From contig NZ_JAIWOI010000133.1 of the NCBI RefSeq assembly GCF_020217005.1, positions 1-10,000 of the forward strand: a DNA stretch of 10,000 bases, written 5' to 3'. Shown here one piece after another: positions 2 to 7,522 of this stretch. How positions within the stretch are numbered: the stretch's first letter is position 1; each line of letters begins with the position of its first letter. The notes under the pieces were generated by a model. It did no database searches. It was not told the DNA's origin and saw only the letters and a program-made list of their open reading frames with translations. Source of the stretch: Rheinheimera sp. GTDB lineage: Bacteria > Pseudomonadota > Gammaproteobacteria > Enterobacterales > Alteromonadaceae. The position numbers and the translations under genes were made by a program.

Positions 2-925
2 TATCGTGTCTACTGGCAGGATTTAAAAGATTCACATAAAGAATGCAGCACCCTGACCCGCCGTGTCGTGGTGTCAGCCGGAACTTTGGGCAGCAACGAG
101 CTATTGATGCGCTGTCGCGACTTGTATAAAACCCTTCCGAACATCAGTCAGCAATTAGGCCGGCACTTTTCCGGCAATGGCGATTTTTTATCTTTTGTGA
201 TTGATGGCGACAAACCAGCAGACCCCAACTATGGCCCTGTGATCACTCAGGGCACAGATTACAACCTGTTTAAAAACTTCGATCGTGACAAAGCTTTTAT
301 TTTGGAAGATGCCAGCTACCCGAACTTTGCCGCCTGGTACACCGAAGGTGTCAAACCCGGAGCCTCCAAGTTCCAGGCTTTAGTTCGCACCATCCGGCTG
401 GCTTTTGCCCGTTTTGTGCATGGTATCAGCACTGGTCATTTGGGCTATGCCTTAAGTTCATTGCTGAAAAACGACTTGTCCTACACCACCAGCGTCTTGC
501 TCTGTATGGGTCTGGACAAAAGCGACGGTGTGATGTCGCTGAATAAAGACGGCTACTTGCATCTGAAGTGGCCTTATAAAAACAGCATGTCCTTGTACAA
601 CGCCATATTGGCCACAGGCGAGCGTTTTAAAACATGGTGCGGTGGCAAAGCTTTTATTCCTATGCCGAACTGGCTCTGGCCTATGCGGCGTAACGTCACA
701 GTGCATTCCTTGGGGGGCTGTCGTTTGGCGGATAGTCCGGAGCAAGGGGTGACCAGTGCTGAATTGGCGACTTTTGGTCAGGTGTTCGGTTACAGCGGCT
801 TGTATGTGGCAGACGGTTCCTTGTTGCCCACAGCGGTAGGTGCCAACCCTATAGCCACCATCAGTGCCGTTTCAGAACGGGTGGCTGAAGGTATCACGGG
901 TATAGCACCCACAGCCGATCTGTAA
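2..925 (+). CDS. GMC-family FAD-dependent oxidoreductase (cholesterol-oxidase-like), C-terminal part
   Basis: The reading frame is open from the first bases of the window, so this is the 3' part (about 307 residues) of a longer gene; a GTG at 68 is internal, not a start. The piece opens with VVVSAGTLGSNELL, the strand-and-turn segment that in GMC enzymes precedes the substrate domain. It ends with the GMC C-terminal signature: VHSLGGC (His codon 704-706), then VADGSLLPTAVGANPIATIS (Asn codon 845-847). In cholesterol oxidases the equivalent His and Asn are the catalytic pair, and the GANP segment sits against the FAD. The family oxidises alcohols (sterols, choline, sugars) using FAD. The FAD-binding GxGxxG end lies outside the window, so substrate and export signal cannot be judged. 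Thirteen bases separate it from the metallophosphoesterase, indicating an operon. Family call is firm; sterol specificity is a guess from similarity. Confidence 0.88.
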   Translation, partial: YRVYWQDLKDSHKECSTLTRRVVVSAGTLGSNELLMRCRDLYKTLPNISQQLGRHFSGNGDFLSFVIDGDKPADPNYGPVITQGTDYNLFKNFDRDKAFILEDASYPNFAAWYTEGVKPGASKFQALVRTIRLAFARFVHGISTGHLGYALSSLLKNDLSYTTSVLLCMGLDKSDGVMSLNKDGYLHLKWPYKNSMSLYNAILATGERFKTWCGGKAFIPMPNWLWPMRRNVTVHSLGGCRLADSPEQGVTSAELATFGQVFGYSGLYVADGSLLPTAVGANPIATISAVSERVAEGITGIAPTADL

Positions 926-938
926 TAAGGCTTAGCCG

Positions 939-2528
939 ATGAGCGAATGGCTGTGGTCTTTCATTCGCCAATTTTTCCAGAAACGGTGCAGCACTGCTGC
1001 TCTGCCCCTTGCAACGAGGTTGACTACAATGAGCAATTTTCCTGCTTATGATGAAGTGCATGTCATTTCCGATATCCATATGGGCGGCGCTGACCCCAGT
1101 TTTCAGGTACTGCGCGAAACCAAAAGACTGGCTGGTTATATTCAGTGGGTCGGTAAGCAAAACCCAGCTGGTCAGGTGGCTTTGGTGCTGAACGGTGATG
1201 TGTTTGATACGCTCGCCGAAAAATCCTCTGATTACATTATGGTCGACAGAGCCGTTGAAGTGGTCAGCAGTATTATGGCCAACCCGTCCTTCTCCGGCAT
1301 TTGGGCCGCTCTGGCAGCTTTTGTCGCTCTGGAACGCCGCACCCTGGTGTTTATTATCGGCAATCATGATGTGGAAATCTCCTTTCCTGTGGTGCAGCGC
1401 CTGATCCAGCAGCGCCTGGCCGGAGACAATCCACAAAAACGCGCCAGCATAGAATTTTCCACTATAGGTGCAGGTTTTAGCTGCACTGTAGGTGGCGCTA
1501 CAGTGTATTGCACTCATGGCAATGAAGTAGACCCATGGAATTTCAACAGATACGAAGACTTAGCCAAAGTGGGCCGACGCCTCAATGCGGGCCGCACTTT
1601 AACTCAGCAGGAATGGACACCCAATGCCGGTACCCGTATGGTGAAAGAGGTGATGAATCAGGTTAAAGAAAAATACAAATGGATTGATTTGCTCAAACCT
1701 GAAACTCAGGCTGCTGTAGGCACTTTAGTGGTGCTGGATCCGTCACAGGCGAAAAAAATTGGCGACTTATTATCTATTGTCGGACGCAAAACTGTGGACG
1801 GCAGAGAAGTGAATCAGCGCTTGTCGATGGATGGTTTTCAGACTCATGCAGAGCAAAATGCGACGCCACCTCAACTGACGCAAGTGCTTGGCAGCAACCT
1901 GACACAAGGCATGAAAACTTATGCCAGTGCAGACAGTCAGGCGGTAGACGCTATGCTACTGCAAGCCGAACAAAACCTTGGAACCTCCAATGCTCAGCTG
2001 TTTGAACAGGATGGACAGCTAGGCACAGGCCAGCTGATATTTGATCGCTTAACCGGCTGGATCCGCAATATTCCCAAAGACGAAGCGCTGCGCCGCGCGA
2101 TGAAAGACTGGTTAGCTGGCGATAAAACCTTCGATATCAATGACAAAGACGACACTTACAAAGAAGTCACAGCTGCAGTTGGCAATGGCATCGACTTTAT
2201 AGTCACAGGCCATACCCATCTGGAGCGCGCCATCGACATGGGGTCTGGTCGTTATTACTTTAACTGCGGTACCTGGATCCGCCTGCTGAGTTTTACAGCT
2301 GATATGCTCAAAGATCAGGCGTCTTTTCAGGGAGTTTATAAAATCCTCATCGACGGCAAAATGGAAAGCATCGACAACGCCAGTTTTGCTGGCCAGCCTT
2401 TTGTGATGAATCAAACCAGCGCTGTTTCTATTAAAAAAACTGCTACCGGCGCTATAGGCAGCCTGACTCATGTGCTGGGTGATGGCACAGGTGAGCCGCT
2501 AATCATCAAGCAATTTGAGAGGTCTTAA
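939..2528 (+). CDS. Calcineurin-like metallophosphoesterase with large insert
   Basis: A 529-residue protein with all the binuclear metallophosphoesterase motifs in order: SDIH (Asp45, His47), NGDVFD (Asp87), GNHD (residues 141-144), THGN (His193) and GHTH (residues 424-427). It therefore very likely hydrolyses a phosphomono- or diester or a pyrophosphate bond using two metal ions; the substrate is unknown. The GHTH is followed by YYFNCGTWIR, resembling the end of LpxH-type folds. Unusual is the roughly 230-residue stretch between His193 and GHTH, rich in helix-forming and polar residues, probably a cap or partner-binding domain. No signal peptide is evident from the first Met, so a cytoplasmic location is inferred. 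The start at 939 has TAAGG eight bases upstream; a second ATG at 1029 (codon 31) has GAGG nine bases upstream, and the conserved domain begins just after it, so the shorter 499-residue form is also possible. It sits in an operon between the GMC oxidase and the CHAT protein. Confidence 0.9.
   Translation: MSEWLWSFIRQFFQKRCSTAALPLATRLTTMSNFPAYDEVHVISDIHMGGADPSFQVLRETKRLAGYIQWVGKQNPAGQVALVLNGDVFDTLAEKSSDYIMVDRAVEVVSSIMANPSFSGIWAALAAFVALERRTLVFIIGNHDVEISFPVVQRLIQQRLAGDNPQKRASIEFSTIGAGFSCTVGGATVYCTHGNEVDPWNFNRYEDLAKVGRRLNAGRTLTQQEWTPNAGTRMVKEVMNQVKEKYKWIDLLKPETQAAVGTLVVLDPSQAKKIGDLLSIVGRKTVDGREVNQRLSMDGFQTHAEQNATPPQLTQVLGSNLTQGMKTYASADSQAVDAMLLQAEQNLGTSNAQLFEQDGQLGTGQLIFDRLTGWIRNIPKDEALRRAMKDWLAGDKTFDINDKDDTYKEVTAAVGNGIDFIVTGHTHLERAIDMGSGRYYFNCGTWIRLLSFTADMLKDQASFQGVYKILIDGKMESIDNASFAGQPFVMNQTSAVSIKKTATGAIGSLTHVLGDGTGEPLIIKQFERS
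2517..2522 (+). promoter_or_regulatory. Ribosome binding site of the CHAT gene, inside the end of the phosphoesterase gene
   Basis: GAGAGG followed by a seven-base spacer and ATG at 2530. It overlaps the last codons of the metallophosphoesterase gene, whose stop ends at 2528. This fixes the CHAT start and suggests that translation of the two proteins is coupled. Confidence 0.7.
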
Positions 2529-2529
2529 C

Positions 2530-4485
2530 ATGAAAGCGCAAAGCACCGAAATTCGCAGCGTAAAGCTTGAACTGTTAAGAGCAGGCCCTACTCACAACCA
2601 GTTATTGTCGCCCTTAACGAACTACATAGCGCTTTGTGGTTCAGACGGCCCTGTAACCATCAATATACCTTTTGAACATCGCCAGTTACTGATGCGGTTA
2701 AAGCGGCTGAAGTACCCGCTGGATAAAGATCCGGCCACTGACGATCAGCGTCAGGCTGAACTTCGGGATATAGGCGAAAGTTTGGGCCGCATTTTTGCCG
2801 AAGTACCGGCATTGATTTCCGAGCTCGGAGCTGCTGCTGCAGAAAAAGGCAGTCTGGTGCATTTAACTTTGTCGATGTCGGCTTTTGAATTAGGTTTATT
2901 GCCTTTTGAAGCCGCCATAGCTGCTGATGGTTTCCCCGGCACTGGTGCCCCTTTGTTTTTACAGATGCGTACTCCTGTGTCCCTGACCCGCGAAGTACGC
3001 CGTGGCCGACCTTTGCCAATGAACTGGGCCAGAACACCAAAAATTCTGTTTGCTTTTGCCGCACCGGCTGGCAGTTACGTGCCATCCCAATCGCATTTAC
3101 AAGCGCTGCGTGAAGCGATAGAACCTTGGGTGAAATTAAAAAACAGCCCGGAAGAGCGCATCAGTGAAGTGAAAAAGCTGCTGACGGTGTTACCACAAGC
3201 GACACTTGAGCAATTACGCACCTTGTGCGCCACACAAGAGTTTACTCATGTGCATGTTCTGGCTCATGGCGCCCCTTATCAACAGTCCGGTGATGAGCAT
3301 TATGGTGTGGCTTTGTGCAGCGAGGCAGGTCCTGATCAGGCAGATGTGGTCGACGGTGAACGACTGGCGATGGCTCTGACGGCTAATGATGCTTTAGGCA
3401 CCAGCCACTGTCGGCCTACAGTGGTCACTTTAGCCACTTGCGATTCTGGCAATATCAACTCGGTGCTGACCCCAGGTGGCAGCATAGCGCATGAACTCAA
3501 TAGCTCAGGTATTCCATGGGTGATAGCTTCACAGTTTCCACTTTGGATGAAAGCCTCAGCTATAGCCGCCAAAGTACTGTACAGCGGTTTACTCAAAGGT
3601 GACGATCCGCGTTGGGTATTACACGAATTGCGTCAACGCTTACGCACTGACGCTCCGGAAACCCATGATTGGGCCAGCATAGTGGCCTACGCTACTATTC
3701 CGCCTGATTTTTCGATGCAGGTGCAGCAGTTCCATGCCAGCCAGACCCAACGCAAAATTGAAGTAAAGTTTGACCGTATTGATGAGCTGGTAAAAAGTAT
3801 CACACTTGGCCTGGCTGCATCCGATCAGCAGTCTGATGTGCATGAAGAATTAACTGCTTTATCCGAAGCGATACGGGCTGAACTTAAAGAGTGGCGGGAT
3901 GAACCCCATGATCATTTAACCAAAGAGGAATGGTCGATGCGGCTGGGCTTAAGCGCCGCCAGTGAAAAACGTATTGGCATAGCACTGGATTTAATAGGGG
4001 CCACAAAAGAAGCCGATCAGGCTTATAAATGCTGTTTTGAGTTTTATCAGGCCGCCTGGACTATCGATCAGTCCAATCACTGGTTACTGACTCAGTATCT
4101 GTCCGTCATTGCTATTCGCAACAGAACTGACGATGTGGCCGGATTACAAAAACTGTCGGAAAAATATGGCACCACCTGGTGTGCAGCCCTTGAAATGACC
4201 AGTTGGAAACTCAGCCTAAGCTCGGGTAAGGACAAAGTTTATGTATTGGCCACTTTGGCTGAGCTGACCTTATTGAATGCAGTTTACCATCCGGATAACG
4301 CAGACCAAAAGGCGCTGCAGGAGACTATTCAGCAGTATTGCAAAGCCATGCTGGATGAAGCTCTGACAGACAAATTCCCTCTGCTATCCACCAAGCGGCA
4401 ATTTAGTCGTTACTTGCAGGAATGGCAAAGTCCTATCTGGCAAGACTTGGCCCAAACTGCGGTCGACGCTTTAACTGAAGAGTAA
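2530..4485 (+). CDS. CHAT-domain (caspase-like) protein with helical C-terminus
   Basis: A 651-residue protein whose middle is a CHAT domain, a caspase/separase-fold cysteine protease module. Seen in order: an N-terminal segment (1 to about 90); LLPFE (123-127), the counterpart of the LPWE strand of CHAT domains; SLTREVRR then KILFAFAAPAG (about 151-182); VLAHG with His246; and LATCDSG with Cys304, which form the expected catalytic His/Cys dyad. IPWVIASQFPL and the VLYSGLLKGD...ALHELRQ-like helices close the domain near residue 400. The remaining 250 residues look wholly helical and TPR-like (for example FYQAAWTIDQSNHWLLTQYL), a probable sensing or partner-binding region. CHAT proteins elsewhere act as regulated proteases, for example with type III-E CRISPR or in gasdermin activation; nothing here shows the substrate. 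Start ATG 2530 was chosen over an in-frame TTG at 2515 because GAGAGG lies seven bases upstream. One base separates it from the previous stop, suggesting translational coupling. Confidence 0.85.
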   Translation: MKAQSTEIRSVKLELLRAGPTHNQLLSPLTNYIALCGSDGPVTINIPFEHRQLLMRLKRLKYPLDKDPATDDQRQAELRDIGESLGRIFAEVPALISELGAAAAEKGSLVHLTLSMSAFELGLLPFEAAIAADGFPGTGAPLFLQMRTPVSLTREVRRGRPLPMNWARTPKILFAFAAPAGSYVPSQSHLQALREAIEPWVKLKNSPEERISEVKKLLTVLPQATLEQLRTLCATQEFTHVHVLAHGAPYQQSGDEHYGVALCSEAGPDQADVVDGERLAMALTANDALGTSHCRPTVVTLATCDSGNINSVLTPGGSIAHELNSSGIPWVIASQFPLWMKASAIAAKVLYSGLLKGDDPRWVLHELRQRLRTDAPETHDWASIVAYATIPPDFSMQVQQFHASQTQRKIEVKFDRIDELVKSITLGLAASDQQSDVHEELTALSEAIRAELKEWRDEPHDHLTKEEWSMRLGLSAASEKRIGIALDLIGATKEADQAYKCCFEFYQAAWTIDQSNHWLLTQYLSVIAIRNRTDDVAGLQKLSEKYGTTWCAALEMTSWKLSLSSGKDKVYVLATLAELTLLNAVYHPDNADQKALQETIQQYCKAMLDEALTDKFPLLSTKRQFSRYLQEWQSPIWQDLAQTAVDALTEE

Positions 4486-4495
4486 TAACCTAAAC

Positions 4496-4523
4496 AACAC
4501 AGCGGGCTTAAGCCCGCTGTGTT
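4496..4523. terminator. Bidirectional intrinsic terminator (perfect palindrome)
   Basis: A perfect 28-base palindrome with arms AACACAGCGGGCTT and AAGCCCGCTGTGTT and a GC-rich core. T-rich sequence follows on the plus strand (TTTT at 4522-4525), and TTGTTTAGG follows on the minus strand. It lies 10 bases after the CHAT stop codon and 20 bases beyond the stop of the convergent CstA-family gene, so it can end transcripts from both sides. The central bases would form the turn of the hairpin. Confidence 0.85.
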
Positions 4524-6132: not shown

Positions 6133-7491
6133 CTACCGCACTAAATGCCATTGTGTTTGACGACCAGCCAGATAAATGACTTTTTTTCCGTCAAAATACG
6201 CACTTTGTTCCAGTTTAATCTGCACATAGTTGCCTCCCCATTCCGGCACTTGCTGTTTAATATTGCCTTCGATGGCATAAGCAGTGTCGGCATACAAAGG
6301 CCATTGTCCACCCACAGCTGAAGGCCCCTGGTTATCCCACATGCCAATAGTTGGACCAGGCGCATGACCAACAAAACCCAGAGCATGGGTGTAGGTGCTG
6401 CTGATCATACCCTGCTTTTGACTTTCCTTGATGGTATTAGCTAAAACGTTATTGCCAGTACGTCCGGCTTTAAACTCATTGGTTAAAATATCCTGCCACT
6501 GATTGCCTGTCGCCAAAGCCTTAACCAAACCCGCTGGGACCTGCTCTTCGCCAACTTTCAGTACATAAGCCATTTCCTGCGTATCAGTGCACAGCTTCAG
6601 GTAACAAATCCCTACATCTGTATGCAGCACATCTCCTCTGTGGATCACTCTGCTTTGACCACAAAATGCTGAATCCAGACGACAATCGTCTTGCTGTCTC
6701 TGGCTATTTACATCGGGCATAAACCAGACAGGTAATCCCAGCGACTCATAACGCTGCCGAATATACCAGGCGACATCGTCCGTGGTTGTTACTCCGGGTG
6801 TAATGACTTTGGCACTAAAAGCCTCGGCAATGACAGCGCGGGCCAGACTGACAATAGCAGGGTAAATTTCAAGTTCAGACGCAGTACGTTGTTCCATCCA
6901 ACGTACCACTAATTGTTCAGAACTAACCAGTCTGTTGCCATAATCTTTGGGCAACACTTCCAGCAAAGACTGATGCATGGCTTTGGTTAAACCATCAGCC
7001 ACAGGCCAGTCTGTTGACACATTAATGCCTATACGTTGAGGATTTCGCTCAGTGATGACCTGTGCCAAAGCCTGCCATTGTTGCTGCAGGTCTCCGCCAG
7101 ACCAGGCTGAGGTATAAGGCGCACCAAAAGGATAACGGTTCACTGATAAGCGCTCGACTGAGCCATCTGCTTTGCGATAAAACACCAACATAGTAGTGCG
7201 ACGGGCGGCAAAAGTGGGCTGAGGTACTAATGTAAAATAGACTGGGTCTTCCGCATATTCGCGGTTGATCACCAGCCACATATCCAGCTTGGCTTCGGCC
7301 ATCAACTGCGGCAGTAATGCCTCAAGTCGTTCCTGCAGAATACGGTTTTCGGTCGCCACTCGGTCTCTTGGTGCCAGTACAGCAAAATCATCTGCTGAGA
7401 CCAGCTGCCTGGCCTGCGTAAATTCAGCGGCAAAGGTTGTTGGGGTGATGGTCATAAGTGCCAGCAAAGCCGTGGTGACTATAGTTTTCAT
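6133..7491 (-). CDS. Exported M24-family metallopeptidase (Xaa-Pro aminopeptidase/dipeptidase-like)
   Basis: A 452-residue protein when started at the ATG at 7491, preferred over an upstream in-frame GTG at 7500 because GGGTG lies six bases before it. The N-terminus (MKTIVTTALLALMTITPTTFA, cleavage expected before AEF) is a Sec signal peptide, so the enzyme is probably periplasmic. Residues about 25-190 resemble the creatinase/prolidase N-terminal domain. The C-terminal pita-bread domain carries all five metal ligands: Asp292 (HTDVG), Asp303 (CTDTQE), His369 (THALG), Glu408 (AIEGNI) and Glu428 (IKLEQ), plus the second conserved His376 (GHAPG). It should thus be an active two-metal peptidase; M24B members usually cut before proline in short peptides, but specificity here is inferred. 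It is followed by a CstA-type permease, consistent with peptide use. Its stop is TAG. Confidence 0.88.
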   Translation of the reverse strand: MKTIVTTALLALMTITPTTFAAEFTQARQLVSADDFAVLAPRDRVATENRILQERLEALLPQLMAEAKLDMWLVINREYAEDPVYFTLVPQPTFAARRTTMLVFYRKADGSVERLSVNRYPFGAPYTSAWSGGDLQQQWQALAQVITERNPQRIGINVSTDWPVADGLTKAMHQSLLEVLPKDYGNRLVSSEQLVVRWMEQRTASELEIYPAIVSLARAVIAEAFSAKVITPGVTTTDDVAWYIRQRYESLGLPVWFMPDVNSQRQQDDCRLDSAFCGQSRVIHRGDVLHTDVGICYLKLCTDTQEMAYVLKVGEEQVPAGLVKALATGNQWQDILTNEFKAGRTGNNVLANTIKESQKQGMISSTYTHALGFVGHAPGPTIGMWDNQGPSAVGGQWPLYADTAYAIEGNIKQQVPEWGGNYVQIKLEQSAYFDGKKVIYLAGRQTQWHLVR

Positions 7492-7522
7492 CTGTCGCAC
7501 CCTGTTGTTGTGATTATTTCGT

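Follow-up and report, generated by a model that had tools for sequence, protein, structure and literature searches.

The most familiar CHAT proteases belong to type III CRISPR and gasdermin circuits, where they act on a dedicated partner. For example, the SAVED-CHAT protease (PDB 8tl0) is reportedly of the CalpL type of type III CRISPR, and Csx29, the TPR-CHAT protease of Craspase, carries its repeat region at the N-terminus. CHAT domains and calcineurin-type phosphoesterase domains (PF00149) are both found among the domains of conflict-system loci in multicellular bacteria; the loci described rely on NTPases of the STAND or MoxR type and on hypervariable sensors (PMC10907252). Here we describe a 10,000-nucleotide stretch of Rheinheimera sp. 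DNA (contig NZ_JAIWOI010000133.1, hereafter the window) whose plus strand encodes a CHAT protein directly behind a metallophosphoesterase (MPE) and a GMC oxidoreductase. The MPE-CHAT pairing looks real and undescribed. Comparison loci and genomes are designated by L and G numbers.

The MPE-CHAT pair and its fused relatives

The MPE gene lies directly upstream of CHAT in 25 of the 28 CHAT loci, at MPE identities as low as ~32%. The pair loci include a 37.6-kb Methylobacterium plasmid and Paraburkholderia megaplasmids, both proteins match the same 8 plasmid records, and the MPE and CHAT distances correlate (24 loci). This adjacency across distant taxa supports the proposal of a first-pass annotation of the window that the protease accompanies an enzyme it may control. 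The same annotation had named a usual lack of linkage between CHAT and phosphoesterase genes as evidence against a functional system, and adjacency is instead the rule. The MPE-CHAT pair is the deeper unit and the core of the larger cassette described below. Near-duplicates occur among the 25 pair loci (L007/L062, L055/L056, and L016/L017), and neither L060 (a fragment) nor L061 (the rest of a plasmid, with no match) counts as a pair locus. The MPE of L008, a record named Shewanella, is 93% identical to the window MPE; the record may be a misnamed relative of Rheinheimera. At E <= 1e-60, CHAT was found in 2 of 369 genomes of a class sample and 3 of 398 genomes of a phylum sample (own genome included in both), and in 16 of the 251 genomes in the order of Methylobacter genome G428. 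Thirteen of the 16 have the core-type protein, a set that omits three genomes with a distant CHAT (G482, G511, and G523).

The CHAT domain (PF12770) was recognized at E 6e-22 (78.8 bits versus a cutoff of 24), and the His-Cys dyad is conserved in 26 of 26 aligned CHATs (19 of 19 in another alignment). The protein is predicted to be a cysteine protease of the caspase-like kind whose dyad is intact. Structure comparison of the CHAT model pointed to SAVED-CHAT, Csx29, and Arg-gingipain; a sequence-only search of solved structures returned nothing useful. We took additional structure matches to 14-3-3 and TPR proteins as generic helical matches. The TPR-S family (PF20308) scored below its cutoff in the window protein (13.2 versus 27.6 bits), and one CHAT relative (P0048) has PF20308 in its precomputed domain list. 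In the structure model the C-terminal region is all-helical and could sense a signal.

The MPE matches PF00149 with 38.6 bits (cutoff 21.5). Its predicted structure has an LpxH-type fold, consistent with an LpxH-like dinuclear-metal phosphoesterase in which an enlarged, partly disordered insert would separate the metal-binding halves. A sequence-only search of solved structures returned nothing useful for this protein either, and no LpxH curated model was among its NCBIfam matches at E <= 1. Eight metal-ligand positions are conserved in 23 of 24 aligned copies. The exception, L059, lacks the N-terminus and leaves five of the positions visible; this copy is broken or misassembled, because the contig continues for ~250 bases upstream of the MPE frame with no MPE N-terminus in any of the three frames. 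The insert is the variable part of the protein, with a mean column entropy of 1.60 in residues 241–350 versus 0.80 and 1.03 on the flanking sides. Model confidence (predicted local distance difference test, pLDDT) falls below 50 in residues 256–281 and 302–345. An Arg-Leu-Ser motif (residues 264–266) within this low-confidence stretch is invariant in 36 of 36 aligned close MPEs.

Two intact CHATs without an MPE (L054 and L057) are proteins of 1077–1078 amino acids. A metallo-beta-lactamase (MBL) domain was identified by Pfam at the C-terminal end of L054, both proteins have the motif LSHIDADHIGG, and the MBL part weakly matches the competence protein 9ic4 (E 0.0014). The CHAT-MBL query retrieved at least 1784 proteins at E <= 1e-30, not all of which need be fusions. 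Among the 120 matches listed, lengths are 971–1122 amino acids, identity is at least 50%, and query coverage is 89–100%; the names listed include Verrucomicrobia, Luteitalea, and Thermoanaerobaculia. The CHAT and helical parts of the MPE-paired and MBL-fused families align over 601 columns (E 2.5e-112). On this alignment, CHAT is the constant part and the partner one of two metallohydrolase folds. No other observation hints as strongly that CHAT acts on, or together with, the hydrolase, and the fusions fit the earlier idea of a protease paired with its possible target enzyme. We searched the linker of L054 (residues 665–733) for a conserved cut site and rejected this candidate, as no column was invariant in 25 sequences.

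Some of the distant loci have further features. Genome G511 holds both forms, a CHAT-MBL fusion (L054) and a distant MPE-CHAT pair (L055). Genes for a short-chain dehydrogenase and a thiolase lie directly upstream of the latter (L055:4462-6383). In L058 (2495-4851), a distant GMC (33% identity) and a 257-amino acid open reading frame (ORF) with no Pfam match follow the distant CHAT, perhaps reflecting an independent CHAT-GMC link.

A six-gene cassette with lipid-type enzymes

The first-pass annotation had treated the GMC, MPE, and CHAT genes as a co-expressed trio. The three genes are the last part of a six-gene cassette with the order alpha/beta hydrolase, acetoacetate-decarboxylase-like (ADC-like), patatin, GMC, MPE, and CHAT. 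One scan found seven named relatives, among them L006 (R. tangshanensis) and L007 (R. faecalis); congeners G014 and G016 have the MPE at the contig coordinates of these two loci, on which the assignment of the own genome to Rheinheimera rests. The full order is present in six of the seven and also in L044 and L062; in L011 the MPE-CHAT pair stands without the other four genes. The packing of the genes is not due to chance, as 8 of the 25 pair loci fetched repeat this order. The GMC reading frame is open at its 5' end: window base 1 is also base 1 of the contig (C144), so that the gene is cut and its upstream neighbors fall outside the window. The features of the window are listed in the table.

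Features of the cassette end encoded in the Rheinheimera window
Feature	Position	Strand	Remarks
GMC oxidoreductase, cholesterol-oxidase-like	2..925	+	last 307 residues of 574; L006-L010 and L012 have full-length relatives
MPE, LpxH-like calcineurin-type metallophosphoesterase	1029..2528	+	499 aa from conserved start; longer frame opens at 939
Variable low-confidence stretch of MPE insert, residues 256-345	1794..2063	+	proposed protease-sensitive lid
Arg264-Leu265-Ser266 codons	1818..1826	+	candidate cleavage or docking motif
CHAT caspase-like protease	2530..4485	+	ATG 2530, 651 aa
CHAT domain, residues 81-387	2770..3690	+	Pfam PF12770
Predicted catalytic His246	3265..3267	+	invariant 19/19 and 26/26
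Predicted catalytic Cys304	3439..3441	+	invariant 19/19 and 26/26
C-terminal all-helical CHAT region, residues 430-651	3817..4482	+	structure model; possible sensor
Hairpin, 12-bp, between convergent CHAT and cstA	4496..4523	.	probable shared terminator

The gaps of 13 and 1 bases initially reported between three plus-strand genes apply only if the MPE starts at ATG 939. ATG 1029 is the likelier start because 13 of 14 aligned database MPEs begin at this position and because Rheinheimera genome G016 has a stop inside the upstream extension, its locus (L007) opening only after that stop. With this start the GMC-MPE gap is 103 bases; the three consecutive genes themselves are confirmed. Similarly, the single strong terminator assigned to them is a real hairpin, GC-rich and strong, with just a short T run on the plus strand, and the scan scored it on the minus strand alone. 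The hairpin is probably a terminator common to CHAT and cstA, since it is located between these convergent genes.

Family and fold support a lipid role for the cassette genes other than the pair. The closest solved relatives of the GMC are cholesterol oxidases (E 2e-23), and GMC_oxred N and C domains were identified in the full-length L006 relative (the C domain in the window GMC). The score of this relative against the cholesterol oxidase model NF058674 is 210.7 bits versus an equivalog cutoff of 850. The patatin protein carries GGGLR and GTSGG motifs and a second domain of ~200 amino acids (residues 328–524) with no Pfam match. Near GMC, this domain occurs fused to patatin, solo, or at the front of an alpha/beta hydrolase (L006:4623-6206, C-terminal part; L097:8556-9164; L099:10843-12588).

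The trio is less stable than the pair. Of the 25 pair loci, 23 of which show their upstream side, 8 have GMC directly upstream, and 19 of the 32 genomes with a GMC ortholog in the order of G428 have another phosphoesterase and no core CHAT. This GMC set omits G485 and G509, whose GMC is only ~40% identical. In L095, for example, the same four-gene order is followed by the other phosphoesterase (MPE2) and no CHAT, and GMC and MPE2 occur together in 25 of the 32 genomes. Proteins of the MPE2 family have ~550 amino acids, and 11 of the 17 loci read (L095–L111; for example, L099:12601-14253) encode one immediately behind GMC or the hydrolase; Pfam gave no match at E <= 0.05 for the one member examined, yet it has calcineurin-type motifs. 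There is no significant BLAST similarity between MPE and MPE2 (best E 0.044), and a profile comparison aligns the two across the first metal motifs (probability 94.6%, 122 columns). A plain replacement of MPE2 by MPE-CHAT would suit the linked operons but not the genomes with both, and 7 of 13 core-CHAT genomes also have MPE2.

In Rheinheimera, the site next to cstA either has the whole six-gene cassette, a block of ~9.1 kb, or has none of it. MPE was detected in 3 of 21 congeners besides the own genome, and GMC in the same four genomes and none of the other 18 at E <= 1e-30. We sought cstA in 16 congeners and found it in 10, three of them with the cassette; the regions of all 7 cassette-free genomes were fetched. 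The block behaves as a unit because, in four of the seven (L119, L122, L123, and L124, compared base by base), DNA homology to the occupied locus L007 breaks off ~146 bases ahead of the first gene and picks up again 75 bases past the CHAT stop. The left flank is different in the remaining three. L120 retains a flank gene farther from cstA. The expected left-flank genes were not near cstA in L121 and L125, where the site has changed. No mobile element was seen at the cassette site. An M24-type peptidase gene (window 6133-7500), which is also in L006 and not at the same place in L007, is a second presence/absence difference beside cstA.

Proposed protease control of a metallohydrolase and its alternatives

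We propose tentatively, at somewhat less than an even chance, that the core of the cassette is a protease-metallohydrolase pair in which CHAT, once triggered, cuts the MPE insert, and that the substrate of the hydrolase is of lipid type. A trigger, possibly sensed through the C-terminal helical region, would activate CHAT, which would then cut MPE within the disordered insert (residues 256–345) and so open or destroy the active site. In this cassette the substrate could be a phospholipid or a lipid-linked phosphoester also acted on by the patatin, the alpha/beta hydrolase, and the GMC oxidase. We infer that CHAT cleaves MPE, where the cut would fall, whether it would switch the hydrolase on or off, what lipid would be acted on, and what would serve as the trigger. 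The resemblance of the CHAT model to Arg-gingipain makes a cut at arginine no more than plausible. A broader and more doubtful proposal is that this CHAT subfamily is a widespread undescribed signaling family in which the protease controls a metallohydrolase, of calcineurin/LpxH type in trans or ComEC-like MBL type in cis. The family would be wired into a lipid-oxidizing operon of Rheinheimera, Shewanella, and Methylobacter for protease-controlled breakdown or remodeling of membrane lipids.

Several observations weigh against protease control of this kind. The CHAT model is mediocre (pLDDT 69, with the N-terminal 160 residues mostly below 50). No universal cleavage site was seen, either in the L054 linker (25 sequences) or among distant MPEs, where an alignment of database proteins makes no Arg-Leu-Ser motif evident. 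Some of the 24 loci with correlated distances are near-duplicates, and joint transfer alone can give correlated distances and linkage. Just 8 of the 25 pair loci have the lipid genes directly upstream; in genomes G604, G617, and G538, a GMC with 74% identity to the L006 protein occurs without a CHAT at E <= 1e-60; and the co-occurrence of GMC with core CHAT in the G428 order (10 of 13 genomes versus 22 of 238 others) is uncorrected for kinship and genome size.

In a different, if unlikely, history, MPE-CHAT is a unit of its own and came to stand behind GMC in a single accident, which transfer then carried between Rheinheimera, Shewanella, and Methylobacter. In 17 of the 25 pair loci the cassette is not seen directly upstream (that side lies past the contig end in L058 and L059, which are counted here), and GMC operons with MPE2 and no CHAT exist. 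Furthermore, outside Rheinheimera the GMC of linked genomes is 78–80% identical to that of L006 (93% for the L008 record, named Shewanella) and 62–69% identical where the pair is unlinked, the contrast expected from one origin. Such an accident is harder to reconcile with linkage kept between distant genera and with the 7 of 10 order genomes with an unlinked core pair that hold a GMC ortholog elsewhere (G532, G429, G558, G467, G529, G494, and G571; not G485, G573, and G660). The MPE2 operons (L095 and the 25 of 32 genomes with GMC and MPE2) would also be accommodated by lipid metabolism, in which the cassette would break down or remodel a lipid or a terpenoid with MPE as its phosphatase, and CHAT would be a scaffold that keeps the enzymes together or a slow quality-control protease. 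The other genes do look metabolic (the GMC near cholesterol oxidases, the patatin with both motifs, the alpha/beta hydrolase, and ADC); an invariant protease dyad and an MPE-CHAT pair that mostly lacks lipid genes directly upstream are difficult to explain in this way, and we regard a scaffold role as distinctly unlikely.

Least probable, in our view, is the conflict or anti-phage role raised by the first-pass annotation. In such a system an infection signal would activate CHAT, and the metallohydrolase set free would act as an effector, killing the cell or halting its growth. Patatins are known as effectors, CHAT resembles SAVED-CHAT and Csx29, and presence is sporadic (CHAT in 16 of 251 genomes in the G428 order; MPE in 3 of 21 congeners besides the own genome). 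Calcineurin-like domains are listed among the effectors of bacterial conflict systems (PMC8195603). One pair also lies on a 37.6-kb plasmid 0.6 kb from an operon for a Dam methylase, a calcineurin phosphoesterase (with a sub-cutoff wHTH-Calcineurin_assc hint), and an ORC-CDC6-like ATPase (L015, NZ_CP099612.1, 9186-14084), which looks like a separate defense-type system. The surroundings of CHAT lent no support to a defense island. We compared PADLOC matches (E <= 1e-10) of 126 neighbor ORFs from 21 of the 28 CHAT loci with those of 118 control ORFs from 13 stretches of CHAT-bearing genomes with hand-picked coordinates, and saw no enrichment in this coarse test, whose power is low because the tables give no distinct-protein count. 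Neighbors matched 57 families; the 25 listed, UvrD-type helicase models and one DRT-helicase model, had 2 members each. Controls matched 47, with at most 2 members each among the 25 listed. The PADLOC SAVED_CHAT model matches CHAT, though only its CHAT part (residues 54–389), and the other five cassette proteins have no PADLOC match. CHAT had zero matches in 50,697 phage records, no NTPase domain scored above cutoff in any of the six genes, which also lack a receptor or cyclase, and GMC and ADC would be odd members of an effector set.

Comparison with described systems

We found no description of the MPE-CHAT pair, the CHAT-MBL fusion, or the six-gene cassette in the titles and abstracts of open-licence literature, where absence is weak evidence. 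The locus differs from SAVED-CHAT (PDB 8tl0) in that the SAVED domain is not among the Pfam matches of CHAT at E <= 1 and the partner is a metallohydrolase. The repeat region of Csx29, which works with Csx30 in Craspase, has its counterpart at the C-terminal end of the CHAT studied here, and Cas7-11 was not noted beside CHAT in the loci read (25 of the 57 matched families in the PADLOC view). Neither the NTPases nor the hypervariable sensors of the conflict-system loci described for multicellular bacteria (PMC10907252) are in the cassette. Among the enzymes, cholesterol oxidases are the nearest solved relatives of the GMC, yet it falls far below their curated cutoff, and the MPE is about twice as long as LpxH (UDP-2,3-diacylglucosamine pyrophosphatase), with a large insert. 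The CHAT-MBL fusion proteins (~1075 amino acids) couple a homologous CHAT and helical region to a metallohydrolase but differ in that the hydrolase is fused and belongs to the metallo-beta-lactamase superfamily. These fusions are single-protein constructs suited to testing the protease-hydrolase link.

If true, the coupling of CHAT to a metallohydrolase (one branch in cis, the other in trans) would carry the logic of the dedicated partner over to hundreds of uncharacterized proteins. The relatives number at least 765 matches for CHAT and at least 1784 for CHAT-MBL, in sets that may overlap and in which not all are pair or fusion members. Likewise, the lipid cassette would be a case of protease control over bacterial membrane-lipid chemistry. 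CHAT with a dedicated partner is already known; apparently new, by the open-licence literature searched, are the lipid cassette and a partner that is a metallohydrolase, of either of two folds.

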